Positions 18,150-58,100 of a stretch of DNA of 64,000 nucleotides are shown one piece after another. The stretch's first letter is position 1; the number at the start of each line of letters is the position of its first letter. Source of the DNA: Buxus sempervirens (taxonomy: Eukaryota > Streptophyta > Magnoliopsida > Buxales > Buxaceae); assembly GCA_947561395.2 (NCBI GenBank), contig OX387185.1, positions 17,696,366 to 17,760,365 of the forward strand. Reading direction: 5' to 3'. The notes beneath the pieces are model-generated. The model had not been told where the DNA came from and did not search any database. It saw only the letters and a program-made list of their open reading frames with translations. Made by a program: the position numbers and the translations under genes.

Positions 18150-20420
18150 TGTGAGACATGGGAAAAAATCACCGGAGTGATCGTCCCTCCGTCAACACAC
18201 GGGCTCAACGCAAAAGTGGGAGAGTCGCCACCATTCATGATTTTGGGGTGAGAATGGACACCAAAGAGTTCACAAATAAGCAAAAATAACCAAAAGACAA
18301 ATTCTAGGGTAAAAATAACCCTACTTGAAAATCAAATCCAGAGATGGGTAAGGGGATTAGATTATGAACGGGGGAAGGTGTTAGGCACCCCCATTCATCC
18401 ACACGAAGTGGTAGCCAAGTGTATGTTCATGCAAAAATAAAGTAAGAAAGCTTGCTAAAAATCATGAAAAAGCCTTGAAAAAGGAACAAGTGTATGATAT
18501 ATTCACATGAAGATCTAAATGGATTTTAGATCCTCTCTTATGTCAATATCATTTCTGGAACATTAAAGAGGTGGAAATCAAAGCACAAGTTGATCAAAAC
18601 CAAGTTAAATCAAATCCGGGAAGTTTGGTAAAAAGTATGCCTTTGTCTTGAAATCATTCAAATCCAATTTCAAATTGAATCAAACCAACTCTATTTGAAA
18701 GATTATGATAAATAAGGAGCTCATGCAAAATCTCAAGTTAATCCGATAAAAATCCTAGGAGTTATGCTCCTTTGAAGTTGCTGCTGGGGATTTTTAAAAG
18801 TAGTAAGTGGGCAACTTTGGAAAATTGTCTAGAAAAATCCACTACATAGACATCCGTGAAATTTGGTGTGATTGAAGTCTGTATGGCCATCTTTCAAAAG
18901 AAACTAGCCTCATACAAAAATCCCTTCGGACGTGCCTTGGGTGGTCTCCCGAACAGGCCCCGAAGATCACAGATTTACCCAGAAAAATGCAAATGAGCAG
19001 TTCTGAGTAAATCGGCTACCAATAATTCAAATGAAATCCAAAAATTATGAAACCAACTGGATTTGAAAATAGACTCATAAAGGAGTACTCAGAAATAAAA
19101 ATCACTCGAATCGGACTTAAAACGAACACATGGCGGTCCGTCGAAGTGACAAGTTCTGTATTTGAACCTGAACTGTCCACTTAACTTCTACAGAGAGGTG
19201 TCAAACATCCGCTAAATGGAAATTCGTGAAATTTGGTGGACATAAACTAGACAGCCTCACCTTTCCAATGGTTCTGGAATCACCCCAAAATTCATCCGGA
19301 TGATGAAGTTATGGGCATCCGAAGTAAGGATACAGGTGCTGTCAAGCTAAGCCACTTTTGAAGAAAACCAAATCCGAAAATTGACAAAAAGTGTGTGATT
19401 CGTGTGAGATGAATCCAAAACCTTTGAAAAACATTTAAAAACACTCCAGAATTTGATTGAGGCCATTTATTGGAGATTTATCACAATGAATGTAATAAAT
19501 CCCCAAATGTGAGCCTATTCACCAAAATAGTGTAATATGTGTGCAAAAGTGAAAAACCAAGCAAGATCAATACAACATGCATATAGATTCAACAAAATAG
19601 GTTCTAGCATAGCCTAGGGTTCCGTTCCATTATCGTTTCCCTCTGTTCTCTTTAAGATAATCAAGGGTACTTTGAATATGGAACGGTTTACAATCAATCA
19701 AAAAGGCCTTATGCTACATAGGTTCTAGCACTAGGGTCAATCCCCAGTCTCGTTTCTCCTAGATCCGCCTTCACGTTTTACGGCTAGGGGAGTCTTGAGA
19801 TACTTTGAGCCGGGGAAGGATTTCCACACATACAAACAAGGCTTTACACTACAGAAAGGTAGAAGAAGAGATCTAGATCTAGGAATGTAAAGACAGAAAA
19901 TAAAAAGAAAAGTTGAGGCTTACCTGAGTTCTGGAGACGATTCCACAGTGGTTTTCTTCTTCTCTTGGAGTTCTTCTTTGCGAGAATTCAAAACAAGAGT
20001 TGTGTTACATTTGCTCAAGGAGGAGGCTCCTATTTATAGACAAAGGCTAAGGTCATTGGTAGACACAACTTAATAACCCCTCCAACCTTAACCCTAAGGT
20101 CATTTCCGAGATTTCCCCTCATTTAATGAGGGACATGATGGTAACAAGTGATTTCTCTCGGAAAACCCTAATTTTGAGCAAACTTAAGGTATCCGGTATA
20201 TCAGGCCGAATAAAAAAGGGCCTTAAGGTATCCGGTACATGATACCGGATACACTAAGGCTCACATGTATCCGGTATGAGTATCCGGATACGGGAAAGGG
20301 TACTTGTATCCGGATTCAGTATCCGGATACAGGTAAAAGTTTCTTTTCTTCAAATTCTGTGCTGGCTTTCCAGGAGATAATGATTTTTGATGATTGTTTG
20401 TGCAATTTGGGGTGTCTACA
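18150..20420 (-). repeat. 3' LTR of element D (2271 bp)
   Basis: In element sense it starts TGTAGACACC (at 20420) and ends GTCTCACA (at 18150). The TATA lies on the minus strand at 20031-20039. TATCCGG palindromes lie upstream of it at 20184-20335. A PBS-like decamer (18221-18230) lies 71-80 bases from the LTR end. The stretch 18591-18750 is much more diverged from the other LTR than the rest. Confidence 0.92.
20184..20335 (-). promoter_or_regulatory. TATCCGG palindrome cluster upstream of D's LTR TATA
   Basis: Four facing pairs such as TATCCGGT/ACCGGATA and TATCCGG/CCGGATA within 150 bp. The same cluster occurs in the other LTR at 41002-41146, with the TATA there at 40838-40846. Confidence 0.75.
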
Positions 20421-20435
20421 ACTGCCCCTCTTTGC
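20421..20435 (-). promoter_or_regulatory. Polypurine tract of D
   Basis: On the minus strand GCAAAGAGGGGCAGT, directly before the LTR start TGTAGACACC. It matches the tract of family X although the LTRs differ. Confidence 0.88.
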
Positions 20436-20821
20436 GGGAGCTGCGAAGCAGTGAGCTGCAAAGAGTAGACAAGCCCAAATTGCATTCCCTTGAGCATGAT
20501 TTGCTCGGTTTAATTCAATTTCTGTAGAAAACCATTTTTGAGTGGAGATTTGCCAAAAAGCCCTGACTTTAAGGGGGGCATCTCTCCAAGAGTTCTTAAA
20601 TTCCACTGAGCCCTTTGTGGCTGTGAAGTGGATTTTAAGCCCAAAAATAGGATTTTTTGAAAAACTGATTTTTTATCAAACCAAGTTGAAAATTGAGTGG
20701 ATATCATCCTTTTGACCAGGCACATTTCCCAAAGTTGTCCCAAATTCCACAGAGCTCTCGTGGCTGTGAGGTGGATTTTGAGACAAAAATAGGATTTTGA
20801 GAAAATAGAAATTGTAGCACA

Positions 20822-21015
20822 ATTTTGCTTTTTCCTTTTCCTTCTCTTTTTTTTCTTTTCTTCTTTTTTTTTTTTCTTTTTTTTTCTTTTTTTTTCTTCT
20901 TTTTTTTTATTTTTTTTTTCTTTTCATTTCCTTTTCTTCTTTTTCATTTCCTTTTTTTCTATTCTTTTCTGTTTTTTTTTCTCTATTTTTTTCTATTTTT
21001 TTTTCTTTTTTCTTT
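20822..21015 (+). repeat. Long polypyrimidine (T/C) tract in D
   Basis: About 190 bases almost purely T and C, so purine-only on D's genomic RNA. It lies between the 3' polypurine tract and the antisense PMD promoter. The Phe/Leu/Ser-rich frame across it is not a gene. Confidence 0.8.
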
Positions 21016-21017
21016 GG

Positions 21018-21120
21018 TATCCGGTATGTATATCCGGATAATCAAGGGTCTGCGGGTATCCGGCCTGAGTATCCGGATCCCGCAGGTTTACTTAAGTCGC
21101 GCGCGACCGCGACTTTTCAT
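21018..21120 (+). promoter_or_regulatory. Likely promoter of D's antisense PMD gene
   Basis: Two facing TATCCGG/CCGGATA pairs (21018-21078) are followed by GACCGCGACT (about 21105) and CTTTTCAT. E has GACCGCGACT followed by CTTCACTTT at the same relative place (51243-51262). No clear TATA box. The following 300 bases look like an untranslated first exon ending in a CAG|GTAAGT donor near 21435, with an intron to 22345. Confidence 0.55.
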
Positions 21121-22345: not shown

Positions 22346-25076
22346 ATGGCTAGGAGTCGTTCCCGAGTTAGAGAGGAGGCTGACCCTGCTGATCAGCCCT
22401 CCAGTTCGCGGGCTCGGACAGAGGCGAGTTCCAGCGCCACCCTGTCGGAGCCGCTAGATGTCCCCCGAGAGAGCTCTGCTGAGGTAGGCTTTCAAAAATT
22501 TTTCTTTCTTTCTTCATTCTACTCTTCTTTCCCACACAACCTTCACATCTTTCTCTTGAATACTAGCCCGTGCTTGCACCGGCTAGGGGTCGAGGCAGAG
22601 GCAGAGGCCGGGTTCAGGATCAGGCCCTTGAGGGCGAGAGAGGCCGTGGTAGAGGCCGAGGCAGAGCCAGAGATACGGCTCAGGAGGGGGTTGCTGTGGC
22701 TCTGGCCGGGGTCTCTGAGGAGTTGAGGGCCTCTGTTCAGGATACAGAGCTCCTCCATGGCTTGGATAGCCACCCCTCCATGTGCATCAGGGCTGATGTG
22801 CCGCTTCCGTACCACTCCTCTCATCTGCGAGGCAGCTGGGGCAGATTTAGTGAGTTAGCACAGTCATTGTCTCCGGCACTCAGGCGGGAGTTTGGGAGAT
22901 GTCATCTGGACCACTTTCTTAGCATCCCATCCTTCAGAGCTGACCGTCCACTCATCTTTGCCATGATGGAGAGATATTTCCCAGAGACGCAGTCGTTTCA
23001 TTTGCCGGACGTGGAGCTGGGGATCCGCCCCTCGGATTTTGTGATGATTACTGGTATTCCGTTGACGGGGCGGACCATCATCTTGGAGCGGCCTTCTGCG
23101 GAGGATATGGGACTTCTTCTGGGATATCAGGCCCTGCCTCCTACTGCTTGGGATGGGCGGAGTGGCCGGCTCTCCATTAGTTGGCTGCGGGAGAGTCTGG
23201 CTCAACATTTCGAGAGGAGGCATGAGACCATCTCTGTGGAGGATGCAGCCTTTGCACCGATCTTCCGACATGTATTCCTGCTAATGTTGGGGAGCTGCTT
23301 CTTCCCGGAGGATACCACCGGTGTCAGCCCACTTTTCTTGGATGCCTTGAGAGATTTCCATCAGACCCGCCAGCTGGCATGGGGTCGGCTGATCTATGGT
23401 ACCATCTTGGCCGGGCTGTGCCGAGCGGTTCGAGGCTTAGCATCTCCGAGAGGTGATGGAGTCAGCAGCCGGTTCTTCTGGCAGATTCTACAGGTATTGC
23501 ATTCATCTGTCTGGTTTAATTCCTTAGGCTTTATCTTTTCTTGACTGATTTTTCTTTTGCCAGGTGTTCATGTACACCTATATGACCTTCTTCCGCCCCT
23601 CCCCGGTTCCTGAGGTTGCGGATTTCCCTGTGGCCCTGTGATGGTCGGCCCAGGTTCGAGATGCTGATAGGAGCCAGCCTCGTACTGCCCGGGTGCACTT
23701 AGACCGTGCCCGCCGATCTGATGTAAGTCCTCTATTTTTTTTCTTTTATTTCCTTTCCTGTATCTTGACTGTATCTGACCACTTTGCTTCTTTGCAGCTC
23801 ATTCTATCCCGTCCAGATGACGTGGATGTCGGAGTTGCCCGTGAGATGGCAGTACAGGATGCTTTTGAGAGAGATCTCCGACGTCAGCCTTACCAGTGCT
23901 TCCTTGGGAGGCTTGGTAGGGTGATGTACTTGGGAGAGCGCCTGTACTTCCAGCACACTGGCGCACTTCGCATCCCCGTCCCTCCTCCTGCTGTGGGTCC
24001 CGATACTCTCCTTCCTGGCTTCGATGTGGATCAGTTCGATCATTTCCTGGATGCCGAGGGGCTCACAGTAGCCGGAGATTATGACGAGTGGTTCCAGGGA
24101 GTATCTATCGGATGCTTGATGGATCGACCTACTCGTGCCGGGGTGACAGAGATCGGCGGGATCCGTATCCGGATCCACGAGGACACGGTAAGCCTTGTAC
24201 TCTTCCCATTTTTATCTTCTTTTCCTTCCTTATGCATTTCTGACCACGCTTCCGTTCTTGTTGGCAGGTACACGAGCTGAACTCCATTCGGGACCGGTTC
24301 GAGAGTCAGCGGGCTGCGATCGATGATATGATCGCGGAGCATGATGCGGTCGTGGCCCAGCGGGATGTCCGGATCAGGGAGCTGGAGGCCTTAGTTGCTG
24401 AGCTCCAGGCTAGACAAGTATCTGGCCTTCTCATATTTTCATTTCTTCCATTTTTCTATTTCTGCTATTCTGATGTGCTTGTTTGCCTTGTGCAGGGCTC
24501 GGTCCCAGATCAGGGTGCCTTCTTTGAGCATGATTTCCTTATTCCTGACCCATCTCCTGCTCGGGCCTCTGATCCTGTGGACGTCCCAGCTGCTGATCCT
24601 GGTGATGCTCCAGTGATGGTTCCTGAGCCAGAGGAGGTCCCTGCTGCCGACCCAGTGGCTCCTGCAGATGCCCCGGCTGTTCCAGTGATGGTTCATGAGC
24701 CGGAGGAGGTCCCTGCTGGTATGCTTTCCTTAGCTTCTTCTTTTTTTATACATTTCAGTATCCCAATTCCTGATTTTTTCCATTTTGTACAGATATTTCT
24801 GATCCTGGCCCTTCTTCTGATGCCGGGCCTTCTGGAGCTGCGGGAGCAGAGCCTGCTATGGTTGAGGGTCCAGTTGAGCCCGTACCTGCTGGGCCAGAGG
24901 TTTCCTCCCCAGATTCTGCTCCTGCTCTACCCCCAGACATCGAGGAGTATTGCCTGGAGTATCAGCTTCAGCAGGTGGTGGGTCGGCATCCTCGTCATGC
25001 AGCCGAGCGTATTCTTGCCTACTCTAGGGGCAGAGCGCTTCGAGGGAGAGGTCGTAGGGATGATCCTGCACAGTAG
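22346..25076 (+). pseudogene. Antisense plant mobile domain (PMD) gene of D, seven coding exons, near-whole
   Basis: The start ATG follows an intron acceptor directly (GTGTAG|ATG), as in the E copy. GT-AG boundaries suggest coding exons 22346-22483, 22567-23493, 23564-23722, 23798-24187, 24268-24417, 24496-24718 and 24793-25076. Exon 1 and the start of exon 2 are Ser/Arg then Arg-Gly rich. Exon 2 holds the PMD core: MMERYFPETQSFHLPDVELG is close to the family's 'ERW.PETHTFHLP.GE' signature, followed by a GIPLTG turn. Later exons encode a heptad-like segment, an acidic Pro/Val/Ala linker and an RG-rich C-terminus. Host PMD proteins (MAIN, MAIL1) are nuclear and affect transposon silencing; PMD genes are also known inside transposable elements. 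About one break. Role here unknown. Confidence 0.7.
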
Positions 25077-25287
25077 CAGTAGATTAGGATTTTTCCTTTT
25101 CATGTATTGATCTTATCATTCCTTGTACAAAAACTTGAATATATATATGAAAAAAACTTTTTATTCATTCTATCTTGTCTTGCACATCTTTTGTTCTCAA
25201 TTTTATGCAATTATGGCATGTAAGCAGGTAAAACAGGTAAAAAATTCGGATTTTTTCATCCTTAGCTCTTTTTTGCATTTTTCCTTG

Positions 25288-25448
25288 GTATCCGGTCTGA
25301 TATACCGGATACATTGATTGGTCTTTGTATCCGGTATGTCATACCGGATACTCGTTCCATCTTTTGTATCCGGTATACTTATCCGGATATGCATAAAGCC
25401 TTTTGTATCCGGTCTGAGTTACCGGATACGCTAAAAGATGCTATAAAT
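25288..25448 (+). promoter_or_regulatory. Promoter of D's antisense DUF7745 gene: TATCCGG words and TATA box
   Basis: Four facing pairs (TATCCGGT, TATCCGGTC, ACCGGATA, CCGGATA) fill 25288-25432 and are followed at once by TATAAAT (25442-25448). The layout repeats that of D's LTR promoter, on the opposite strand. Confidence 0.7.
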
Positions 25449-25557
25449 GCAACCAGCCTCGGGATTTGAGCATTTTTACGAGTTTTTGAGTGTAGAAACC
25501 CCCTTTTTCGCCTTTTTCTTCCTCCTCTTGAGTTCTAGCTTGCTCCCGTCACATCCA

Positions 25558-27264
25558 ATGGAATCCGGATCATCTTCTGGCCCATTATTGTCTGTCCACA
25601 CTGCCTCCCCTGCAAATCAGCCTTTTAGATCAAAACCCCCAAATCTCACTAGGTACAACCCTGTGGATTCCTTTTACACAAGGTGGGTTAACTCTATGAC
25701 CCTAGATGAGGAGAGGAGATGGGGTACTACCAATCTAGGCCATACCCTGCTCATTCCCAAGGTTCCCTTCAGGTGGGAGATTATAGAGGCCATGATTGGT
25801 CATTGGGTTCCTGACCTCAACTTGTTCCGTTTTGGGAACCATGAGATGACCCCAACCATTGAGGAGGTGGAAACCATCCTGGGCCTGAGGTTTGATGAGA
25901 AGGTGGTGAATCCACCTCTTAGGCCTAGTTACAAGAAGGAAGCTTCTACTTTTTTGGGCATAGGGAAGAAGGACTTGGGGGATTCTGACACCCTTTTGAC
26001 CCTATCTAAGGCTTTTTTGACTGAGAAGCTTTTGAGGGGAGAAGATAAGGAGGCCCGATTCAATGCGTTGACCCTGATAGTGGTCAACCAGTTGCTTTTC
26101 CCACGGGAGGATGACGAGGTGGACTTGGCCTTGATTTCCGTGATATGCTAGGTTAGGGAGCGGGAGAGGTTGGCCCCTATGATTTTAGCTGGGATATATC
26201 AGGCCTTAACCGACTGCTACAATAGGAAGTCGAAACGCTTCCTAGCATGTGCCCAGATCCTGCAGGTAAAAAAAATTTTTTTTTATTTTTATTTCTTCTT
26301 TCCTTGCTTTTTTGGCTTTCTTTTTGCCTTTCTTGCTTTTTTTTTTTTTTTTTTTGTGTGCTGACATATCTCCCTTCCTTTGCAGCTTTGGCTACTTGAT
26401 CATTTGAGCCAGATTGAAGAGATCAATCGACACTTCTTCCCGAGTCTGAAAGTCCCTCTCTTGATGAGCAACAGGGGGTGCCCCGATATTCCAGGGGGCA
26501 AACAGGGCTGGTTCACTTTCTTGGGCTCGCTTTAGGATGACCAGGTGAGGTGGCCTGGTACTTATCAGCCTAATGCGGAGACAGTGATTAGCTTCCGAGA
26601 CCGCAACTTTCTGATTCTAGCTGGCCTGAGGCATGCAGTGCTTTATCTTCCTCTGCGGGTCCTTCGTCAGTTCCGTGCGACCCAGGGGATTATCATCCCA
26701 TGTGGATATGAGGATCGTCTTGGGCCCCTTTCTATGAAGCTGAATGCCTGGTTGATGAAGGAGTGGTCCTATGTCCGCTTCATGCATGGTCCAGTCTTCT
26801 CAGAAGCCCATGTGAAGGATTATCTCTTCTGGATCAAGGAGCAGATACAGACTCAGGCCCCAGTACCCGAAGATCCTCCTGTAGTCTTGGCTCCCACTTA
26901 TGAGGACATTCTAGAGTCTGAGCGGGCTTCTCATAAGCGGCTTCAGCAGATATGGGTACGGGAGGCCCAGGAGCTCAGGATACAGGGCGCTTATCTGGAG
27001 AGGCAGCTTGAGGAGCAGATCTCACGCCGTATTGCCGTGGAAGAGAAGCTGGAGGAGCAAAGGCAGGCCCGTCGCTTCGAGGTCCGTATGATCCGGCAGA
27101 AGTACCAGGATACTTTGGCCAGCCTTAGGAGTATGCGGATCAAGCAAGCCCTTTCAGATGAGGTCATTTCCTTCTTGAGTGATCCCGCTGCAGAGGGGGC
27201 TTCAGGAGTCATTGCAGCTCAGGCAGCTCGGATTCGGGAGCTTGAGGAGCGGCTAGGGGACTAG
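25558..27264 (+). pseudogene. Antisense DUF7745 / girdin-like gene of D
   Basis: The ATG at 25558 (MESGSSSG) is preferred over an upstream in-frame ATG that overlaps the TATA box. One intron is seen (26266-26385, CAG|GTAAAA to TTTGCAG). The N-terminal half has the DUF7745 pattern found in plant 'girdin-like' proteins: a conserved IGHW..DLNLFRFG segment, then the MTPTIEEVE motif. The second exon continues with LWLLDHL and a long Glu/Arg/Gln-rich coiled coil near the C-terminus (about 26900-27260). A polyadenylation-like AATAAA follows near 27341. Looks lightly broken, about two breaks. Function of the family is unknown. Confidence 0.65.
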
Positions 27265-27720
27265 CTTTATTTCCTGCACATTTTTCATTCCTTTGTACAA
27301 AATTGAACTCCAATAGTGGAAATACAAAGGATTTAATTCAAAATAAAGTTTTTATATTCTTGGCCTCAGAATGCTCAGATGCTTGTAAAAACAAAGGTTT
27401 TATGAAAAGTATTTGATTTATCATCACTGGCCAAAGTATAATTTTTCCTTTTTATATTTTTTTTGTATTTTTTGAAATTTGGTCCATGCACTTAATCACC
27501 TATAATTAAAGGAATTAAAACCAGGTTAAATAATGAAAAGGGTAGTCCACAAAATACTGAGGGCTCAGAACCGTCCATCTTAGGACCTTTAAAGTCATCC
27601 CCAACTGCCAAAACTGCCCCATTCTGCTCATGCCAACTTTGCTTAATGCTCAGATCCCCATGATCAACTCAACCTCTGATTTTCTTTCATTTTTCTTATT
27701 TTTTCCTTTTTTTTTCTTTT

Positions 27721-28204: not shown

Positions 28205-31200
28205 TCAAGGAAAATACCTTTTTACCGCATCAGAGTTAATGGGCTCAGGAAAATCTGACCCATCCATTTCTGCTAAGATGAGTGCGCCCCCTGACAGGAC
28301 TTTCTTGATGACATATGGGCCTTCCCAATTGGGCTTGAACTTACCACGAGGGTCTTCCAAAAATGGTAGAATTTTCTTTAGCACTAAGTTTCCTTCTTGG
28401 AAAGTTCTGGGCCTCACTTTCTTATTGTAAGCCCGGGCCATTCTCTTCTGGTACAACTGTCCATGGCAAAGCGCTTTCAACCGCTTTTCTTCTATCAGGT
28501 TAAGTTGATCATGTCTTGACTGGACCCATTCGGCTTCTTCTAGTTCTGCTTCCATGAGCACTCGGAGTGAGGGGATCTCTACTTCCACGGGCAAGACTGC
28601 TTCCATCCCATAGACTAGGGAGTACGGGGTTGCCCCAGTTGAAGTCCGGATCGAGGTTCTGTATGCATGCAGAGCAAGTGGTAGCATTTCATGCCAATCT
28701 TTGTAACTTACTACCATCTTCTGAATGATTTTCTTTATATTCTTGTTTGCTGCTTCCACTGCCCCATTCATCTTTGGCCTGTACGGAGCTGACTTATGGT
28801 GGGTGATCTGAAACTGCTCACACATTTTCTTCATGTCCTTGTTCTTAATATTTGAAGCATTGTCTGATACTATGGCACTTGGCAGTCCATAGCGACAAAT
28901 GATATTGTGCTTCAAAAATTTAATAACATGGTTGCTTGTGATATTTGCGTATGACGCTGCTTCTACCCATTTAGTGAAGTAGTCAATCGCCACCAAGATG
29001 AATCTGTGCCCGTTCGATGCCTTAGGGGAGATCATGCCGATGACATCTATGCCCCACATAGAGAAGGGCCAGGGTGATGTCATGTTGTGCAGCTCACCTG
29101 GGGGTGCATGCTTGTTATCTGCATAGATTTGACATTGATGGCACCTCCTGACATGTATACAGCAATCATGCTCCATGGTTGTCCAGTAGTATCCCAGCCT
29201 CAAGATCTTCTTTGCCAACATGTGCCCACTCATATGGGGCCCACAGACTCCTCCATGTACGGTCTCGATCAGCCTTTCTGATTCAGCCTTGGCAACACAT
29301 CTTAGCAGAATATCGTTATGTGACCTCTTGTACACATGTCCACCACTCAGCAAAAACTGACCTGCCAATCTCTGTATTGTCCTCTTCTCAGTAGCAGTGG
29401 CATTTTCTGGCAAACTACGATTATTCAAGAAGTTCTTGATATCCTGAAACCATGGTGCTTCTTCTTCTGGTGCTCCCTCTAGAACGAGACAATAATCCGG
29501 TTCATCTCTAACCTCAATTTCCAGCGGTCTGATGGCTACTCCTTCTGGTATGCTGACCATTGAAGCCAAGGTTGCTAGAGCATTTGCAAACTGATTTTTG
29601 GCCCTTGGCATATAGTTGAAGGAGATTCGAGTGAAATTTGTGCTTATTTCTTCCAAGTACTGGTGATAGGGGATCAATTTGTGATCCTTTGTTTTCCACT
29701 CACCAGTTGTTTGGAAGATGATAAGACTCGAATCCCTGTATACATCAAGTTCCTCTACTCCATGATCCATGGCTGCTTGCAATCCAATTATGCATGCCTC
29801 ATATTCTGCTATGTTATTGGTGCACTGGAATCTCAGCTTTACTGCAATTGGGATATGTGAACCATCTGGTTTAACCAAGACTGCCCCTATTCCGTTCCCA
29901 TTCATATTGGCGGCCCCATCGAAGAACATCTGCCAAGAACTCTCACTGTCCTCCTCTTCAGTGTACAGAATTGCCTCATCTGGGAAGTTGGTCTTCAAGG
30001 GTTGATATTCTGGCAGAGGATGTGCAGCCAGGTGATCAGCTATGGCTTGACCCTTGATCGCCTTCTGGGTGATGTATGTGAGGTCAAACTTGGACAGTAG
30101 TAGTTGCCACTTTGCCGTCCTGCCAGTCAGTGCCGGTTTCTCAAATAAATATTTCAGCGGGTCCATCCGGGATATCAATAGTGTGGAGTGACTAAGGAAA
30201 TAATGCCTTAGCCTCTGAGTGGCCCACACTAGAGCACAGCAAGTCTTCTCCAATGATGAGTACTTAGCTTCATATTCTGTGAATTTTTTACTCAGATAGT
30301 AAATTGCCCTTTCTTTTCTACCAGTCTCATCATGTTGCCCCAAGACACATCCCATTGACGTTTCCAATACTGACAAGTACAGGATCAGTGGTCTTCCTGG
30401 AGTTGGTGGCACTAGTACCGGCGGGTTCAGCAAATACCTCTTTATTGTATCAAACGCCTGCTGGCAGTCCTCATTCCAGACCGTCGGGTTATCTTTCCTC
30501 AAAAGTTTGAAAATTGGTTCACAGATAGCAGTGAGTTGTGCTATGAACCGGCTTATGTATTGAATCCTCCCAAGAAAACCACGAACCTCCTTCTCGGTTC
30601 TGGGTGCTGGCATTTCAATTATGGCCTTGGCTTTAGCCGGGTCAATTTCAATTCCTCTTCGGCTCACTATAAACCCCAGTAGTTTCCCTGATGTAGCCCC
30701 AAAGACGCACTTAGCCGGGTTAAGCCGTAGACTGTACTTCCTGAGCCGATCAAACACTCTCTTCAGATTGATCAAGTGGTCCTCCTCTTTGCATGATTTG
30801 GCAATCATATCATCCACGTAGACCTCCATCTCCTTTTGGATCATGTCATGAAATAGTGCAGTCATGGCCCGCTGGTATGTTGCCCCAGCGTTCTTAAGCC
30901 CAAACGGCATGACTGTGTAGTGGAATGTGCTCCAAGGTGTGATAAATGCCGTTTTTTCTTGATCCTCCTTAGCCATCTTGATCTGATTATATCCCGAGAA
31001 ACCATCCATGAAGGAAAACAGGCTATGTACCGCAGTATTATCAACCAGAATGTCGATGTGTGGAAGCGGAAAATCGTCCTTTGGGCTTGCCCTGTTCAAG
31101 TCTCTATAATCCACGCACATTCGGACCTTCCCGTCCTTCTTTGGTACCGGCACTATGTTTGCGAGCCACTCCGGGTACGTAGAGACTGCCAAAAATCCGG

Positions 31201-31393
31201 CTTGGAACTGTTTGACCACTTCATCCTTGACCTTCAAAGTCCACTCAGGTTTCAATCTTCTCAGCTTCTGCTTAATCGGCTTAACCCCTGGTAAAATCGG
31301 CAACTTATGCACCACCATGTCCATGTCCAACCCCGGCATGTCCCGATATGACCAAGCGAACACATCTTTGTAGTCTGCCAAGAATTGTGACAT
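28205..31393 (-). CDS. D pol: RT, RNase H, second RNase H, integrase (1062 aa, open)
   Basis: Approximate residues: RT 40-230 with YVDD near 191; gypsy RNase H about 330-450; second, archaeal-type RNase H from ~487 (MFFDGA, then AEYEAC and DSSLI), the hallmark of the Tat lineage; integrase zinc region (H-H-C-C) about 711-755; integrase core with D in WGIDVIG (~778), D in VSDNAS (~843) and E in GAVEAA (~876); C-terminal domain to 1062. The protein makes the cDNA and inserts it. The frame is open over its length. Its relation to gag-pro upstream is likely by splicing or read-through, as known in Ogre/Tat elements. Confidence 0.93.
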   Translation of the reverse strand: MSQFLADYKDVFAWSYRDMPGLDMDMVVHKLPILPGVKPIKQKLRRLKPEWTLKVKDEVVKQFQAGFLAVSTYPEWLANIVPVPKKDGKVRMCVDYRDLNRASPKDDFPLPHIDILVDNTAVHSLFSFMDGFSGYNQIKMAKEDQEKTAFITPWSTFHYTVMPFGLKNAGATYQRAMTALFHDMIQKEMEVYVDDMIAKSCKEEDHLINLKRVFDRLRKYSLRLNPAKCVFGATSGKLLGFIVSRRGIEIDPAKAKAIIEMPAPRTEKEVRGFLGRIQYISRFIAQLTAICEPIFKLLRKDNPTVWNEDCQQAFDTIKRYLLNPPVLVPPTPGRPLILYLSVLETSMGCVLGQHDETGRKERAIYYLSKKFTEYEAKYSSLEKTCCALVWATQRLRHYFLSHSTLLISRMDPLKYLFEKPALTGRTAKWQLLLSKFDLTYITQKAIKGQAIADHLAAHPLPEYQPLKTNFPDEAILYTEEEDSESSWQMFFDGAANMNGNGIGAVLVKPDGSHIPIAVKLRFQCTNNIAEYEACIIGLQAAMDHGVEELDVYRDSSLIIFQTTGEWKTKDHKLIPYHQYLEEISTNFTRISFNYMPRAKNQFANALATLASMVSIPEGVAIRPLEIEVRDEPDYCLVLEGAPEEEAPWFQDIKNFLNNRSLPENATATEKRTIQRLAGQFLLSGGHVYKRSHNDILLRCVAKAESERLIETVHGGVCGPHMSGHMLAKKILRLGYYWTTMEHDCCIHVRRCHQCQIYADNKHAPPGELHNMTSPWPFSMWGIDVIGMISPKASNGHRFILVAIDYFTKWVEAASYANITSNHVIKFLKHNIICRYGLPSAIVSDNASNIKNKDMKKMCEQFQITHHKSAPYRPKMNGAVEAANKNIKKIIQKMVVSYKDWHEMLPLALHAYRTSIRTSTGATPYSLVYGMEAVLPVEVEIPSLRVLMEAELEEAEWVQSRHDQLNLIEEKRLKALCHGQLYQKRMARAYNKKVRPRTFQEGNLVLKKILPFLEDPRGKFKPNWEGPYVIKKVLSGGALILAEMDGSDFPEPINSDAVKRYFP

Positions 31394-31791
31394 TTCATTT
31401 TTCTACACATCAGACAAGCATGACCCGATTTTTACAATTTTTGGGTCATCTTTGGTCCCAAGGTTTATGGATATGGTCTCCTCAATATTAGGTTGGACCC
31501 CCTTTTCATGACGTTCCAATTGGTATTCAATTTCTTTTGGAACGTCTTCTTCTTCGACCTCGGTCTCTTCTTCGACCCCCATGAGATCAAAGTCGAGCTC
31601 AAGGTCGAAGTCATATTCAACCTGGTCCAATTCGGTCTGATTATATGGTTCATAAGTGGTTTGGACCTTTTTGAAAAATTTAAACTTTCTAGAAAAAATA
31701 GAAAAATCTTTTTGGGTTTTTTGTGGGCCTTCTAAACATAATTCCCCTGAAGACGAAGGCCCATTAGAACCTTCAGGGAAATGGCATTCCA
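31394..31791 (-). other. Acidic linker between D's gag-pro and pol frames
   Basis: About 400 bases coding-like in composition and rich in Glu/Asp codons. The same linker is recognisable in C at about 41780-42140. It probably lies within the gag-pro-pol precursor, but how it is expressed cannot be seen. Confidence 0.5.
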
Positions 31792-38935: not shown

Positions 38936-38952
38936 CCCCAGCAGAGTCGCCA
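38936..38952 (-). promoter_or_regulatory. Primer binding site of D
   Basis: On the minus strand TGGCGACTCTGCTGGGG begins two bases after the LTR end GTCTCACA. It is complementary to a tRNA 3' end finishing in CCA. From memory of Ogre/Tat elements the primer is likely tRNA-Arg; this should be checked against a tRNA set. Confidence 0.85.
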
Positions 38953-38954
38953 GT

Positions 38955-47794: not shown

Positions 47795-47975
47795 ATCGGG
47801 CCGCTCGAGCAGTTACTCGAGCGCCTTTTTGTATTCTTCAAAACCCGAGAGCTATTTTCCCAGATTGAACTATCGCCTGAATAGTCGCTCGAGCGACTCA
47901 TCGAGCGACCAATCCTGAAACGACCACGTTGTATGGCCGTTCGAGCGCCCAACTGCCGCTCAAGCGACCAGTCTG
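47795..47975 (+). other. CGCTCGAGCG word cluster in H
   Basis: GCTCGAG, CTCGAGCG, CGCTCGAGCGAC, TCGAGCGACC, TTCGAGCGCC and GCTCAAGCGACC occur in 180 bases. They form palindromic CpG-containing words comparable in kind to those of the other elements, with a different core. Confidence 0.6.
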
Positions 47976-48376: not shown

Positions 48377-50810
48377 TGTGAGACATGGAAATGTCACCTA
48401 AGATGACTTTTGATATCGTCACGCGGGGATCGATAAAAACAAAGAGTCGCCACCATCCAAGTTAAGGTGTGAATGGACACCAAATGGATCATAAATGCCA
48501 AATAGAGCCAAAAATAGCTCTAATACAAGGGGAAAATCCAGAGATCAGGTATGGGGAATTAGTTATGAGTGAGGGAAGGTGTTAGGCACCCCCACCCATT
48601 CGTACAAGACGGTTGCCACATGTTTACCTTCATACTAAAGATTGCTTGCTAATCAAAAACAGACAAAGGATGCTTAAAAGTAAGCAAAATGTGTGTGATT
48701 ATTCCATATGAGTAGTCCAATGAATTTGGACTCTCTTCATGGATATACCACTTCTATAACTTCATGAATGAGTCCAAATCAAAGTAAAAATGAAGAAAAA
48801 TCAAGCTAAGGTAAATCTAAAAAAATCAGGTTGTAAGAACTTGAAGACTTCGATCAACCATAAATCACTTGATTTAAATCCAAATCAAATGAAACCAAGT
48901 CCATTTGATAGCTGGTATGAAATAGAATATTTAGTAAGAAAATCATCTCATTCCGATTTAAAACAAGAGAGTAACACACTACGAAAATCAGTTGTTGTTA
49001 CTCAGAGAAAAGCGACGAGTAAGCATTTTGGAAATCCTATTTGTGGAGTTTGGCTCCATATAAATTCATAAAAACTTGCATGGATGAAGTATATGATGCC
49101 ATATTTCAAATGAAATAGGTCTTACACCAAACTCCATCCATTTGTGACTTGTGTGTCCTCTTGAACATGCCTAGAGGATCACAGATTAACCCAGAACTCT
49201 GTTACAGAGCCACTCTGAGTCAATCAAACACACAAACCACAAATAAGATCAAAATCTATTGAAACCAATTGGAATGGAAAATAGACTCCTCAAGGAAAAC
49301 ACAGATACTAAAATCACTCAAAACGGATTAAAATGGAGCAAATGGTACACAATCAAAGCGGCAAGTTCAGCAATCTGGACTGAACTGACTTGCCGAGTTT
49401 GAACAGATGGTGTCAAAAATTGGCTCTATAAAAATGCATGAAAATTTCCAGATAAAAAGTAGGCTTTTCCATCTATCACATGTCTTTGAAATCACTAAAA
49501 AATTCATCCGGAGGATGAAGTTATAAGCATTCTAAGACAGGCCACAGATGCTGCCCTGTTTTGAAGATTTTGAATAAAAGGCCAAAATCAGTGCATGTGT
49601 GCAATTGGATTCGACCAAAACAACTGAAAACCATAAAAAAAAGCCTCATGAAGTTTTAAAATTCATTCTAAAGCCAATGATCTCAGATTTCCCATATTAA
49701 ACATGGAAAATCCAAGATCTAGCTTATCCTTGCAAAACACAGTGAAAAGTGTGTTTTGTGGTGATGGAAATCATATTTCTAGGAGAAGGTTGGAGTCCAT
49801 TGCTATGAGAGCATGGATTCGTATATCTTCTCCAGAGACAAATACACAACATATCAGAGAAAGCAACCATAGGCTCAAAATAATCAATGCACATGCTCTT
49901 CATCGTATGAGGGTTCTAAGCCTATAGGATCCATTCCACCTTATTTTTTCTAAGGCTCTCTCTTCACGTTTTACGGCTAGATAGAATTCCCATGTACTTT
50001 AGAAGAGGTTTGGGGCTACAAAACAATCAACCACAGGCTTTACACTACAGAAAGGTAGAAGTTGGGAGGTTGTTGGAATGTAAAGAGGAAACCAGAAATC
50101 TAAAGAGGAATTTACCTTAGGTAGCTTGAACTTTGAGTAGACAATCCAGCAGAGTTTCCCTCCTTCTTGCAGAGCTTCAATGCTTCAAATTGCCAGCCAT
50201 TTGCAAGAGGAGGAACCCTCTATTTATAGGCACAACCAAGGGCATTAAAGTCCCAAGGGTATGCCCAAAAATCCCTCTAGATTGTACCAATTCAAGTTAA
50301 AGCCTTGAATTGTTGTAAATCTAGAAGTTTCGAAGGGTAAAAAAAGGAGTTCAAGTCCCTGAGAGAGAGGTAATATGCGTAAATAAGGCTCAGAGATCGA
50401 GCCTTTTTGCGAATGCACGAAACAAGCAAAATTGCATACACAGTGCGGTTTCCATAAAACCGTCACTTTATATGCAGTTTTCATACAAATTCACCTCAAC
50501 CGCACATACAGGGCGGTTCCAATTCAGTTACGCTCCTCATGATTGCTGTCGATGTGGTCTAATTGCATAAGCTTCTAGAAGCCACGTGGCTGCTCATGCA
50601 AGAAGCATGAACCTCAACTGTGCTGTGTGTGCGGTCGAAACCGTATACACAGGGCGGTTGAAACCAAATTCCCAAAAACCGCATATATAGTGCGGTTAGC
50701 ACCATTTTTGAGTATTTCTGAATTTCTGACATATGTCGCAGCTCAAATAAAACATTTAAAATTCATTTTGATTGTTCGCTCACATTGAAGTGCAATTTGG
50801 GGTGTCTACA
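48377..50810 (-). repeat. 3' LTR of element E (2434 bp)
   Basis: Element sense: starts TGTAGACACC (50810), ends GTCTCACA (48377), as in D. The first bases, the segment around 50031-50060 and the PBS-like decamer (48443-48452) align with D; much of the rest is diverged. TATA on the minus strand at 50221-50229. Confidence 0.88.
50437..50705 (-). promoter_or_regulatory. ACCGCATA/TGCGGT palindrome cluster upstream of E's LTR TATA
   Basis: Facing words AACCGCA and GCGGTT, 7-10 bases apart with ACA/TATA-like spacers, recur around 50437-50465, 50503-50520, 50630-50660 and 50682-50700. It has the position of D's TATCCGG cluster but a different word. Confidence 0.72.
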
Positions 50811-50822
50811 ACTGCCCCCTCT
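50811..50822 (-). promoter_or_regulatory. Polypurine tract of E
   Basis: On the minus strand AGAGGGGGCAGT directly before TGTAGACACC. Confidence 0.82.
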
Positions 50823-51154
50823 TAGCTGGAATTGGAATCAATTAACAACGGAGAGCGAAAGACCCGCAAATTGTGCTTCCCAAGATTATGTCCACTTAAT
50901 CATGACTTGCAAGAACTTCAAAATATGATTTTTGGAAAAAGAGTTTGTTTAGAAGACCTGCTGAAAAGTCCCTAACCTTAAGGGGCAAATCCTCTTCTCG
51001 CGTCTCACAGAGCACTCGTGGCTATGAAGTGAGATTTGAGCAAATTTTTTAAACAAAGGTTGATAGGGTGGTGGTTCTTGCAATTCACAACTATCTTGGA
51101 CACAAATCTCTTGAAAGAGAGTGGAAAAAGTTTCGAAAATTCATTTTTTGGTGC

Positions 51155-51262
51155 TAACCGTATTGAACATGCGGTTTTTGGCCATTTCAATATCAACCGC
51201 TCTGTCTATGTGGTTCTCTAGGTTGCATATAACCGCGACCGTGACCGCGACTCTTCACTTTA
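51155..51262 (+). promoter_or_regulatory. Likely promoter of E's antisense PMD gene
   Basis: One facing pair AACCGTAT/ATGCGGTT (51163-51180) lies upstream of GACCGCGACT followed by CTTCACTTT (51243-51262), the element shared with D's PMD promoter. Confidence 0.5.
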
Positions 51263-51411
51263 CCTTTGCAAAACCCTGGAACTCCGTTGCTCTCTGTTTG
51301 CTCTTGCGACCGTAGTTTTCTTCCAGTTTTCGATCCCTTCTTCTTCGGTGAGGCTAATTGCTCTCCGGCGACCTCTGTTTTTCCGGTGATCTCTATTTTT
51401 CTTCCGGCAGT

Positions 51412-51537
51412 CGGTAAGTTCCGTGACTGCCGCCGCCGTGGCCTTTCTCTTGCCGCTTGGGATTTCTCACTTGTCGGTAAGTTCCGTGACTGCCGCCGCC
51501 GTGGCCTTTCTCTTGCCGCTTGGGATTTCTCACTCGC
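51412..51537 (+). repeat. Perfect-looking ~63 bp tandem duplication in the E PMD leader
   Basis: GTCGGTAAGTTCCGTGACTG and the following ~43 bases are repeated head to tail. Each copy carries GGTAAGTTCC, a good splice donor, so the duplication doubles a donor site in the presumed untranslated first exon. Confidence 0.8.
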
Positions 51538-52754: not shown

Positions 52755-55362
52755 ATGGGCCGCACCCATCGTGCTTCTCGGGGTCCCGCAGATGAGCCTT
52801 CATCTTTGAGGGTTCGGAGGGATCCAGCCGATGTGGCATCTTCCTCTAGGGCTGAGTAGGACCCTGATCTTTCTTCTCCAAGCAGTCTGGAGGTCTCAGA
52901 TTCAGATTCTAGAGCTTCTGGGGGTTCGCGAGAGCCGACCCCTGAGGTATTCTCTTCTCCTTTTTTAAAAGACCAGGCCTTTCCTTTACAACCTTTAACC
53001 TGACCCCATCCTGTTTGCATTTCTAGCCTACTGTCGAGGTTCGAGGTTGCAGCGGAGCTCGCCGTAGAGGTAGGGCAGAGGCCCGGGCGCCTCGAGTTGG
53101 TATTCCTACTGGGATAGCGGATCAGATCCGAGATACTCCTCTTCTCCACGATCTGAGAACGCACCCTTCGGCGGGCGTCAGAGCTGACATTCCCCTTGTT
53201 TATCCGTCTTCCCATTATCGTGGGAGCTGGGCTCTTTTCGCTGAGATGGTGGCAGGATGTTCGATCCCTTTGCGCCGAGTGATGGGCTGTTTTGGGTTTG
53301 GCCCCTTCATCACTATTACCAGCGTTCGTCAGGATCGAGCTCTGATAGCGGCTATGATGGAGCGGTTTTTCCCGGAGACCCTGAGCTTCCATCTGCCTGA
53401 TGTAGAGATTGGGATTCGTCCTTCTGACTTTGCTCTTATTATTGGGATTAGGATGATTGGAGATGTCATCATTGAGTTGGATAGGCCGGCTGATTTGGAG
53501 ATTGCCGAGCTTCTGGGATATGATGAGATGCCAGTGGAGGCGTGGGACACGAGTAGGATCACTCGCCTTTCCCGGACTTGGTTGAGGGATACCTTCTTGG
53601 CGAGGAGATACGGTACTGTGGCAGTGGAGCATCCCAGCTTCCCGGTGGCCTTCCGCTTCCTTTTTCTCTTGATGATGGGGTCGTGCTTCTGCTTGGAGGA
53701 TACCACCTCAGTCAGCCCTCATTTCCTGAGTCTTCTCAGGGATTTACCTCGAGCGAGGGACTACGCTTGGGGCCAGCTTGTCTACGGCACCCTGTTAGCG
53801 GGTTTGGGGCGAGTGGTCTCTGGTCTGTCCTCTCCCAGAGGTGCTGGGGTTGGCTGCAGGTTTTTCTGGCCCTTCTTGCAGGTATGAATTCATTTTTCTT
53901 TTCTTCTTTTTTTTTCTTTTTCTTTTTTCTTAACTTCTCTTTTATTTTTCTTTTTTCTTTTCTTTCTCTTTCAGTTCTTCGCTCGGGTCTATGTGGCCCA
54001 CTTTCGCCCGACCTCCACACTGCCTGAGGGGACATTCCCTGTGGCTCGTAGATGGAGTCAGATTCGGTGCGACTTTGAGAAGAGTCGCCCTAGGTCGGCC
54101 AGGGCTCACTTGGACAGGACCTTCAGGAGAGAGGTAAATGCTTTCACGGATTCCTTTTTTATCAATCCTTATTTTCTCTTTTTTCAAGAATCTAATATTC
54201 ATCTTTGTTTATTTTCAGCTGTCCGTCCCCCGTTTAGACGGCCTTCATGATGAGTTGGGCTTTTAGCCATTTGTGGATGAGGCGTTCGCTCTAGATCAGC
54301 GACGTCAGAGGTACCCCTTCTTCATCGGCCAGCTGGGTAGTATATGGTACCTTGGTGAGCGCTTCTACTTCCAGCACACCGGCGAGCTCCGTATCCCTGT
54401 GGCTCAGAGATCGGAAGGGTGGTGATCCGCCTATATGATACCACTGTATGAATCTCGTCCTGCTCTATTCTTTTTAGCTTCTTCCTTGTTTGAAATTGCT
54501 AATGTCCTTTTCTTCTCATTTCAGGAGGCACAGTTAGGGGAGATTCGAGCTCGATATGCGGATCTAGAGCGCCAGCTGGCAGAGAGAGACGCTGCTATAG
54601 TTGAGAGCGATGTCATCATCACTGGGCAGGCCGCTCTTATTTCTGATTTTCGGGCTCAGCTAGCCAAGGCTCAGGGCCAGGCAGGGCCTTCACGGGCTCA
54701 GGTCATCCCTCTATCCCTTTCGGTTTCTGTTTTTTATCTTTTATTTTCTCTACTTCTGATCAGGATTTTTCTGTTTTCAGGAGGACGTGGCAGCCTCACC
54801 ATCCAGCTCCCGTACCCTATCTCTTTTTGTAGAGGCTGCAGAGATCCCGGAGAGAGATCCGGAGATAGTGGCCGAGGCTACTTCTGCTGCCGTTCCTGAG
54901 CTAGCTGACCTGCCGGAGGTTACCTCTATGCCTGAGAGTGCTCCTGAGCTAGAGACTGTGCCTGTATCCGCATCTGTTGAGCCGGAGGAGGATCCTGTGA
55001 TTGCCACTGAGCCAGAGGAGGGTGGTCTTGAGGTTTCTGAGGTCCCTGAGGCAGCCGAGCCTGCGATGGAGGCGGACTTGCATGATGTGCCCGAGCCTGA
55101 GGTGGCAGAGGTCCGTGAGATATCAGAGCCCATAGACGTTGATTCATCTCCTGCTGCTGAGGATTCTCGGGTTCTGGACTTGGTCCCCTTGGCGACCGAT
55201 ATCTCAGTTTCTTGCTTCATGGATCTTACCCATGATGGCTCGGATGATCCAGTTCCAGTCCCTTCAGTCGAGCCGGCGCTTCCAGTCGATCTGCCTCCTC
55301 CTGCTGGTCCTTTTGCTCTTGCTGGCCCATCTTCTCCTGCCAGCCCACGTTTCTCAAATTAG
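52755..55362 (+). pseudogene. Antisense plant mobile domain (PMD) gene of E
   Basis: The ATG follows an acceptor directly (CCTGTAG|ATG), the same arrangement as D. Early introns fall where D has them: about 52947-53026, 53882-53974 and 54134-54218. The second exon has the PMD signature MMERFFPETLSFHLPDVEIG and a GIRMIG turn. Further on are a heptad-like segment and a long Glu/Pro/Val/Ser-rich acidic region ending near 55362. Broken, several breaks. Its agreement with D in gene order and intron places shows that both descend from one captured gene. Confidence 0.7.
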
Positions 55363-55654
55363 GTTTTTATTCGACGGCGACGGCAAGGCGGAGGCTATGG
55401 GGATTGACCTGTAGGAGATAGATTTAGATTAGGATTCTTTTCTTTCTACATTCGACACTTGTATATATAAAAAAACTGATGTATTGATTTGCATATGTAT
55501 ATAAAAGAGAAAATTATTCATTTTTTGCTTCTTTTCTTTTATTTTTTTGCTTTTTATTTGTTTCCATCATGATATAACTGCTATACAGGTAACAAGTATC
55601 TTTGAAAAACATGACTTATTAAAAGAAGGAGAAAAAAAACTGTTTTTGTGCAAA

Positions 55655-55770
55655 TCCGCACATACAGGGCGGTCATGCAAGGACCGCACTTGTCCCTCGG
55701 TTTTTAAACTCCGCGTAAATGTAACTGCGCATTGGACGCTGTTCAGGCACGACCGCTGTGAGTATGCGGT
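55655..55770 (+). promoter_or_regulatory. ACCGCA/TGCGGT words upstream of E's antisense DUF7745 gene
   Basis: CCGCACATACAGGGCGG here is also found in the LTR cluster (about 50504-50520). ACCGCACT and GTATGCGGTT follow. The position matches D's TATCCGG cluster before the same gene. A TATA box is not obvious (TTTTAAAG near 55786). Confidence 0.62.
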
Positions 55771-55901
55771 TTGTGCCCTTTTGCGATTTTAAAGCCGCGA
55801 ATCGCGGGCAGAACATCACTTTGACGTATTGCTTAGGTCATAAACCCCTCTTTAGCGATTTTTCTCTCTCCTAGCTGCCTTTAATCCACTTTTGACCATC
55901 A

Positions 55902-57558
55902 ATGGCCTTTGATTCAGCCTCCGCGCCTTCTTCGTCTTCTGTACCTGAAATATCAACTTCCAGACCAACCATTAGAGCAAAACCTCCAAATTTGACAAGA
56001 TATGCCATTGTAGATGCTTGTTACGAGAGATGGTTGACTCAATGACCCATCAAGACAAGATAGATTGGGACTTCACCAATCTAGGCCACATCCTCTCACT
56101 CCCTAAAGTTTCCCTAAAATGGGAAATCATAAAGGCATTGATTGGGCATTGGGAACCCCAATTAAACCTTTTCAGGTTCGGGGATAAGGAGATGACCCCT
56201 ACAGTCGAGGAGGTTGAAACCATCCTCAACCCTAGGTTCTCCAAAAAGGTAGTCAACCCACCTCTCAAACCAAGCTTCAAAAGGGAAGCCTCTACTTTTT
56301 TAGGTATTGGCAAGAAAGAGTTAGGGGATGCTGACGCCCTATTGACCCTATTGAAGTCATTTTTGACTGAAAAGCTATTGAATAGCTCAAACCATCCAGC
56401 CTAGTTTAATGCCTTAACTTTGATAGTGGTCAACCAACTTTATTCCCCCATGATGATAGTGAGGTAGATTTATCCCTCATTTCAGTCATTTGCCAGGTTA
56501 GGGAGCGCGAAAGGCTTGCCCCTATGATCCTTGCTGAAATATACCAGGCCCTGACAGATTGCTATCATCGGAAGAAGAAGAGTTTCCTCGCCTGCGCCCC
56601 TATCCTTCAGGTAAAGTCTAAATCTCTTTCTTGAATTACAATTTTCTTGTGAATTTGAAATTTTCTTTGCAACTAAATTGAAATGCTTCCCTTTTCTTTG
56701 CAGCTCTAGCTTCTAGATCATCTGACTCAGATCGAGGAGATAGACTGACACTTTGCCTGGAACATGGGTGTTCTCACTTTGATGAACAATCGGGGATGTC
56801 TTTCTATCCCAGGAGGCAAGAGGGGGTGGTTTGTCTTCTTAGGGACGCTCCAGGATGACCAGATGAGATGGCCTGGTACTTATCAGCCTTCTGCCGAGAC
56901 GGTGATCAGTTTCCCAGATCGGAATTTTGCCGTGCTCATGGGCTTGAGGTCTGCTTTGCTTTACTTGCCTTTGATGGTCATCCGACAGTTCAGAGAGGAG
57001 ACTCAGGGGATCCTGGTACCTCAGGGCTATGATGAGTTTATTGGCACACTCACACCGGCCACCATGGGGTTGTGCTTCCATTTGATGAAGGAGTGGCCCC
57101 ATGCCTGCTTTTTGAGTGGTCCTGTCTTCTCCAAACTGCATGAGAAGGACTACCTCTTTTGGATTAGGGAGCAAGCGCAGAATTGTACTTCTGTACCGGT
57201 GGATCCCCCTGCTGTCCCGTGTCCTACCTATGAGGACCTTTTGGAGACTGAGAGGGCTTCTCATAGGCGGCTCCAGCATATATGGGTAGAGGAGGCTCGA
57301 GCCATGAGACTGGAGAAGGAGGACTTGGAGAGACGGCTCGCAGAGCAGATACAAGCCCGTCGCTTCGAGGTTAGAGCCGCATGGCGTAGGCATGATGAGA
57401 CCATGGCCAGGCTCAGAGATATGAGGACCAGATAGACCCTCTCAGATGATGTCATTTCCTTCGTTAGCGACCCGGATACAGAGGGGGCTGAGAGGCTTGT
57501 CGTGGTTCAGGCAGCTCGGATTAGAGAGCTCGAGGAGAGACTAGGGGATAGAGATTAG
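55902..57558 (+). pseudogene. Antisense DUF7745 / girdin-like gene of E
   Basis: Starts MAFDSASAPSSSSVP, then matches D's gene along its length. IGHWEPQLNLFRFG and MTPTVEEVE mark the DUF7745 region; an intron lies at about 56612-56703; after it come WPGTYQPSAETVISF, a KDYLFWI segment and a C-terminal Glu/Arg-rich coiled coil. Ends near 57558. Broken, a handful of breaks. As in D it converges on pol, with ~1 kb between the two 3' ends. Confidence 0.68.
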
Positions 57559-57987
57559 CCCTTTTATTGTATTTTTTTTCTTTTTTACACTTTTGTACAA
57601 AGAGAAACTCCTCTAGTGGAAAGACAAGGAATACAAAAATAGGTTTTTATACTATTGGCCTCAGAACTCTCATATACTTGTAAAAACTAATAGTTTAATG
57701 AAAAGTCATTGATTTCTCATCATCGGCCAAAATATAATTTTACTTTTTTATGTATTTTTGTAGGAAATTGGTCCACAGTGCTTTAATCACATATAGTTTA
57801 ATGAATTAAAGCAAGTTGAACAAAAAGTGTATTTTAAATAATAGGGAAGAATCCATTCCGTCAACCTTTGGACCTTTAGACTCATCCCCAAATTGCATAC
57901 CATCTCCATTGATGATGCCATCACTTACTGGCTCAATCCTATGCTGAAAATCTGCCCAACTCAACCCTGCTGTTGAAAACTGTGTAT

Positions 57988-58100
57988 TCAGACCGGTTTA
58001 GCCGAAACCGCCTTTAACATGTGGTTTTCTGATCATTCTGCCAAAACCGTATAAACAATGCGGCTTGGACCAATCTGTACCCACAGTGCGGTTTTTGACC
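57988..58100. other. ACCGC/GCGGT word cluster between E's antisense gene and pol
   Basis: GAAACCGCC, AAACCGTAT, AATGCGGC and CAGTGCGGTT occur in about 110 bases. D has no clear counterpart of its own word at this place. Confidence 0.55.

Follow-up and report, generated by a model that had tools for sequence, protein, structure and literature searches.

Promoter arrays in a group of giant retrotransposons of Buxus sempervirens are built from a single palindrome, CCG-N11-CGG, whose core and spacing are common to several element families and whose flanks are family-specific. The arrays were found in a stretch of 64,000 nucleotides of contig OX387185.1 (positions 17,696,366 to 17,760,365 of the forward strand), here called the window, in which the elements are lettered A, D, E, F, G and H. 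Element D, the main subject, is a 23-kb long terminal repeat (LTR) retrotransposon of the Ogre kind on the minus strand, with two LTRs that are 97% identical and a pair of antisense genes that encode, respectively, a Plant Mobile Domain (PMD) and a DUF7745 domain. The initial annotation described clusters of palindromic words that differed between elements, A and F sharing one. The clusters are real, and the words are recast here as half-sites of the CCG-N11-CGG palindrome, common to D, E, A/F, G and others; CpG is present in every core. We give an even chance to the reading that the arrays are sites of a dimeric family-specific DNA-binding protein, likeliest the DUF7745 or PMD protein of the element itself.

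Spacing and enrichment of the palindrome

CCG-N11-CGG occurs 45 times in the window, against 1 to 34 occurrences for every other spacer between 0 and 40, while 200 dinucleotide shuffles of the window yield 3.3 on average and 10 at most. The 34 sites at spacer 37 are explained by the 39-bp step of the arrays, since CCGG contains both CCG and CGG. Upstream of the DUF7745 gene, successive sites are 38–39 bp apart in D, 27–28 bp or about double that in A, and 28, 41 or 69 bp in E; the sites before the E PMD gene at locus L040 have a 39-bp step. The A and F arrays switch between inward-facing and outward-facing dyads at 14-bp intervals. The steps of 28 and 39 bp differ by approximately one helical turn, although the E step of 41 bp does not fit this rule.

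The five D clusters of TATCCGG/CCGGATA lie where they had been described and hold 37 of the 46 such words in the window (9, 5, 9, 5 and 9). Nine words lie outside these clusters, five of them in the G array (12807–13044); shuffled sequence gives a mean of 3.6 such words. For E, the arrays are present at the places initially reported, but the bare hexamer ACCGCA/TGCGGT given as its word is not enriched (14 seen, 12.7 expected), and only the N11 pairing stands out. The TACGGGC/GCCCGTA heptamers assigned to A and F are borne out, with 13 occurrences in the window against 2.1 expected. The word ascribed to H, on the other hand, is represented by one exact CGCTCGAGCG and by related palindromes of another architecture, and falls outside the N11 group. 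The H palindromes at 47800–47970, GTCGCTCGAGCGAC and its relatives, do not have the CCG-N11-CGG form and perhaps represent a separate code.

The preference for N11 extends to the 676.5-Mb genome, which all genome-wide pattern counts cover. TATCCG-N(4–18)-CGGATA is found at 42,420 places, with exactly N11 in 41,458 of them; the reversed controls give 279 places (N4–18) and 23 (N11). TATCCGA-N9-TCGGATA has 8,452 places, the control two. For TGCCCG...CGGGCA the spacer is N11 in 46 of 50 among the places listed. AACCGC...GCGGTT yields 6,973 places against 1,279 for the reversed pattern, with the right spacer in 40 of 50 among the places listed. The shorter AACCG-N(4–18)-CGGTT is noisy (29,957 against 13,036 reversed), and N11 is not dominant among the matches listed. 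The reversed A/F pattern (11,282 against 5,881) is unusable as a control, since what it matches are the outward-facing dyads that belong to those arrays themselves.

On contig 1, the coordinates of the matches outline four D-type elements, with first sites at 3409339, 3441585, 3679719 and 4234112. Each spans about 20.5 kb with five arrays, spaced as in D and assigned by distance to LTR, leader, DUF7745, PMD and LTR, in that order; the first element has a DUF7745 match beside the expected array. In the same contig, positions 3385807–3395482, again judged by coordinates only, contain D-type arrays over 9.7 kb in the order LTR, PMD, leader, LTR, with the DUF7745 array missing; this is possibly a deletion derivative of a D-type element.

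Sharing of words within elements

The arrays of nine elements from five families, 26 in total, were compared. The PMD array of the K family, which has no exact site, was left out, and the N family is outside the LTR comparison, the stretches at L104, L105, L106 and L108 holding no LTR array. The mean half-site similarity is 0.62 within elements, 0.55 between elements of the same family and 0.29 between families. The proposal that the LTR and the antisense-gene promoters of one element share a word stands: all 5,000 permutations fall short of the observed mean, and in 24 of 26 cases the closest array of a different type belongs to the same word family.

In element D, across the LTR, leader, PMD and DUF7745 promoters, the half-sites are 86–98% identical, compared with 29–52% for the palindrome centres and 21–38% for the linkers. 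Between D arrays of different promoters, alignment extends past the words solely in the leader–DUF7745 pair. Copying in blocks would have carried the linkers along, which is not seen, and hence the D half-sites are read as being under selection. Dyad symmetry at a fixed spacer, together with conserved half-sites beside near-random linkers, is what would be expected from a dimeric sequence-specific protein.

Family words and the DUF7745 tree

Genome scans scored 118 of 5,750 and 150 of 5,589 candidates. The promoters of 94 DUF7745 copies were read, namely 90 of the 118 scored places and four loci from the second set; the profile range assigns six of the 28 remaining places to an array-free type and the other 22 to the Ogre type. 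All 58 Ogre-type promoters contain at least one CCG-N11-CGG, nearly always about −460 to −300 from the domain. They hold 173 N11 sites, the next commonest spacer being represented by 32. In another, deep DUF7745 clade, 36 copies were read and none has an array. The division into the Ogre type and the array-free type was drawn after the promoters had been seen, and it matches a branch with SH-aLRT support of 100. The array-free clade includes L005–L007, L009–L015, L017–L022, L024–L026 and L028–L034, many of them with open frames near 498 aa.

The word types are GTATCCGG (D), GTATCCGA (P), AACCGC/AACCGT (E), GCCCGTA or GACCGTA (A), the CCGCAT type (K) and TAACCGAA (N). On the DUF7745 protein tree, which was built without the promoters, seven word groups need six changes, the minimum, compared with a mean of 48.9 for shuffled labels, a contrast inflated by near-copies. 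The expected co-variation of the word with the DUF7745 clade is thus observed. Locus L068, with a mixed word, is ungrouped in this count and raises it to seven if treated as a state of its own; the labels of L113 and of the window E element were assigned by hand from their sites.

At L041 (1377–3829), upstream of a DUF7745 copy of the array-free type, E-type and A-type arrays lie next to each other inside 2.5 kb. These side-by-side arrays are probably nested insertions.

TATA boxes and palindrome centres

The initial annotation had several clusters stopping just before a TATA box. That is so for the DUF7745 array of D, followed by TATAAAT 10 bp on, and for the A and G arrays (Table 1), but not for the other four D clusters: the TATA box lies 146–157 bp beyond the LTR arrays, and a search past the PMD and leader arrays found no TATA box. 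More generally, a TATA box at most 120 bp after the last DUF7745-promoter site is seen in 24 of 26 A copies, all five D copies, the single N and P copies and the mixed L068, and is seen in one of 23 E copies and not in the single K copy.

A TGAGT centre is common to the palindromes at 25405, 37411 and 21056 (D), 13027 (G) and 62442 (F). As a general feature of the promoter-proximal palindrome it was dropped, being present in four of five D promoters and the one N promoter, in three of 23 E promoters, and in none of the 26 A and three other promoters.

Element D and other features of the window

The pol frame of D (28205–31399, minus strand) has a second RNase H between the RNase H and the integrase, and its domain order is that given for Ogre and Retand elements in the available part of Neumann et al. 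2019 (PMC6317226). D also has the PMD-type extra open reading frame (ORF) of Ogre elements, in antisense (PF10536, PF24924). Both antisense genes are situated between pol and the 3' LTR, and the DUF7745 frame matches PMD as well, though weakly (Table 1). The open frame downstream of it possibly represents the remainder of the DUF7745 gene. The leader region of D contains a large tandem array (35762–36952) with periods of 78, 157 and 235 bp. The extra E cluster at 57988–58100 directly precedes the stretch where E realigns with D, and D has no word cluster at the matching place.

Table 1. Positions of arrays, LTRs and reading frames in the window
Feature	Positions	Strand	Details
A array	2370–2560		28-bp steps; ends 14 bp before TATA box
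G array	12845–13051		39-bp steps in last three sites; ends 12 bp before TATA box
D 3' LTR	18144–20420	−	97% to other LTR
D array, 3' LTR near U3 end	20184–20335		exact CCG-N11-CGG at 20228, 20267, 20306
D array before antisense PMD gene	21017–21081		exact sites 21017, 21056
D antisense PMD frame	22567–23541	+	PMD, PF10536, E = 4.8e-14
D array before antisense DUF7745 gene	25284–25432		exact sites 25288, 25327, 25366, 25405
D antisense DUF7745 frame, candidate reader	25447–26148	+	PF24924, E = 5.3e-11; PMD, 4.7e-06
Open frame downstream of D DUF7745	26536–27261	+	charged tail; no Pfam match
D pol frame	28205–31399	−	reverse transcriptase (RVT_1), RT_RNaseH, second RNase H (RVT_3), integrase, in order
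D gag frame with G-patch domain	31792–35607	−	domain matches
D array, leader	37293–37436		exact sites 37294, 37333, 37372, 37411
D 5' LTR	38949–41233	−	97% to other LTR
D array, 5' LTR	41002–41146		exact sites 41041, 41080, 41119
E array, LTR	50437–50705		exact sites 50496, 50637, 50675
E site before antisense PMD gene	51154–51180		CCG-N11-CGG
E antisense PMD frame	53027–53884	+	PMD, E = 2e-15
E array before antisense DUF7745 gene	55652–55775		exact sites 55652, 55680, 55749
Extra E cluster downstream of DUF7745 gene	57988–58100		exact site 58043
F array	62373–62465		CCG-N11-CGG sites

Candidate readers and rival explanations

The words had initially been interpreted as a possible self-recognition code read either by an element protein or by a methylation-sensitive host factor. 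What is supported of this is that family words are shared between LTR and antisense promoters and follow the DUF7745 clade. We propose that a dimer would contact the CCG and CGG half-sites 11 bp apart and would also read the neighbouring bases, which vary by family. Its likeliest source would be a PMD-superfamily protein encoded by the antisense genes of the element, DUF7745 ahead of PMD. Such a reader may occupy the sites of its own family in the LTR, in the leader and before both antisense genes, its own gene included, and may thereby activate the whole element, or protect it from silencing, within that family only. Three steps here are inferred from the arrangement of the sequences: the existence of a protein reader, its encoding by the element, and activation or anti-silencing as the outcome.

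A fixed core and spacing with flanks diverging along the protein clade fit one homologous dimeric protein of drifting specificity. In the adjoining stretches L110 and L075, the LTR array immediately precedes the DUF7745 gene, leaving no space for a PMD gene, and the LTR and DUF7745 arrays are both A-type; this mildly favours DUF7745 as the reader, though a recent loss of PMD is possible. The further claim, that DUF7745 or PMD is a new DNA-binding class and that the code is a private cis-trans one, each Ogre family activating or unsilencing only itself, we hold to be somewhat less probable than its opposite.

Several observations weigh against an element-encoded reader or weaken the evidence for it. 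Congruence between the word and DUF7745 would be expected whoever reads the sites, because the word and the genes are physically linked and co-inherited. The half-site similarities overlap, the lowest within an element being 0.46 and the highest between families 0.68. On the DUF7745 tree, D is not one clade (two changes, with L051 apart), and only five of 91 inner branches are starred; moreover, 13 of the 36 array-free copies carry one isolated CCG-N11-CGG near −570. As for the proteins, Pfam recognised no DNA-binding domain in the ten plus four frames scanned, and by sequence the DUF7745 frame and the PMD frame each had a single PDB match, with E about 1 and thus no solved relative. The AlphaFold model of the D PMD frame aligned with that of E has a mean pLDDT of 35. 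The DUF7745 tail was tested for the heptads of a dimerising coiled coil, and 248 of 300 shuffles scored as high; the signal being within the shuffles, dimerisation through a coiled coil of this tail is not claimed.

The main alternative, which we consider unlikely, is that all these Ogre families exploit a host transcription factor, or paralogous factors, with the CCG-N11-CGG dimer geometry. The flank differences would then reflect the use of different paralogues or neutral drift homogenised inside the element. A host reader would account for the core alone being constant across families, and the CpG in every core would permit methylation sensing. Where the core CpGs have decayed, they have mostly become TG or CA, as methylated CpGs do, which leaves room for a host reader. 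CG is kept in 86% of the core cells in E and 93% in A, other CpG columns of the same promoters retaining 83% and 70%. The CGG-CCG boxes of Sireviruses, which belong to an unrelated superfamily, as presented in the available part of PMC2829016, also suggest that plants have readers of such dyads. However, the D flanks are conserved between unlinked arrays with unconserved linkers, so that they look selected and not drifting, and the word type tracks an element-encoded protein. Moreover, we know of no plant factor with the CCG-N11-CGG geometry, though no motif database was searched for one, and this also counts against a host reader.

It is rather improbable that the palindromes are CpG-rich targets for the small-RNA and methylation machinery of the host, or products of tandem duplication or gene conversion with no specific reader. 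Gene conversion would move the linkers too, but these are 21–38% identical against 86–98% for the half-sites, even though the D arrays do appear as 39-bp tandem repeats and those of the leader and DUF7745 promoters align beyond the words. The decay of core CpGs mainly to TG/CA agrees with silencing; a silencing target, however, should not persist at TATA-adjacent promoter positions, and the fixed N11 across families with different words is left unexplained. Palindromes are also able to fold, and arrays in the LTR and leader might form hairpins or cruciforms, for example in packaging or dimerisation of the element RNA. We find this very improbable, as the antisense-gene arrays lie a long way from either end of the RNA and neither centres nor linkers are constrained. 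Chance or base composition, to which the unenriched bare E hexamer and the noisy AACCG...CGGTT pattern might point, has a negligible probability and is refuted for the N11 arrangement by the spacer and shuffle controls.

Comparison with known systems

The closest resemblance is to the repeated motifs (RM boxes) of Sireviruses, which are Ty1/copia elements (Bousios et al. 2010, PMC2829016). In the part of that paper available to us, they are CGG/CCG palindromes, CpG-rich, element-specific and present in high copy, clustered in the LTR upstream of the TATA box and before an internal gene, with the reader described as unknown. Unlike the sites here, 12 of the 13 motifs in its Table 3 are CGG-N4 to N6-CCG, that is, they have the opposite order and a shorter spacer; the internal gene there is ENV, instead of an antisense PMD or DUF7745 gene; and the same part describes neither a fixed spacer across families nor congruence with a gene tree. 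Element D itself is not a Ty1/copia Sirevirus, since it has the gypsy-type pol order and a second RNase H.

A functional model is offered by the VANDAL transposons, where, according to the available parts of PMC5735166 and PMC10398659, the element-encoded VANC protein binds family-specific motif arrays and undoes silencing, and motif and protein co-evolve. Arrays of short family-specific motifs in non-coding regions of the element are found in our case as well. However, VANDALs are DNA transposons, and the copies of their motifs, YAGTATTAY and AGTTGTCC/AC, all point the same way instead of forming dyads. The domains of VANC are DUF1985 and DUF287, whereas the antisense genes here match PMD and DUF7745; binding is proven for VANC and would be a prediction for the present sites. 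Neither DUF1985 nor DUF287 matched any of the ten plus four frames scanned, and DUF1985 gave only three places genome-wide, all below the cut-off. Gal4-type zinc cluster proteins recognise CGG-N11-CCG, in which the order of half-sites is opposite to that of CCG-N11-CGG, and Pfam found no Zn2Cys6 domain in the antisense frames scanned.

Element D resembles Ogre/Tat elements in its pol domain order and its PMD extra ORF, such ORFs being reported in 57% of Ogre elements (PMC6317226); the available part of this account neither describes a promoter word code nor assigns the ORF a function. In Retand elements, antisense genes also lie between pol and the 3' LTR with family-specific tandem arrays near them, and their TRP28 proteins were proposed to be DNA-binding regulators, the binding being only predicted (PMC11963269). 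They differ in the TRP28 domain, and no palindrome architecture is described in the part of the paper at hand. The Arabidopsis PMD-C proteins MAIN and MAIL1 are genetically tied to the promoter motif DOWN (PMC7156037, PMC9899485). Its example from the MORC1 promoter, CATGCAGTTT, has no CCG/CGG dyad, and for MAIN/MAIL1 the portions of these papers available to us do not show direct binding. Searches of the open-licence literature revealed neither a description of a CCG-N11-CGG code in Ogre elements nor a paper on DUF7745. Of the systems compared, the Sirevirus motif is the nearest precedent and VANC the functional model.

Significance

No function is established for the antisense extra ORFs of Tat/Ogre elements, and the literature available to us leaves open whether PMD proteins bind DNA directly. 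The arrays provide an exact, numerous and family-resolved candidate target for these proteins. If the proposed reading is true, tens of thousands of matching sites would lie at sense and antisense promoters, and this would reveal how a giant retrotransposon can run several promoters in concert while leaving rival families inactive. Sequence-specific anti-silencing would then extend from DNA transposons to LTR elements, and the reader would be a retrotransposon counterpart of VANC.

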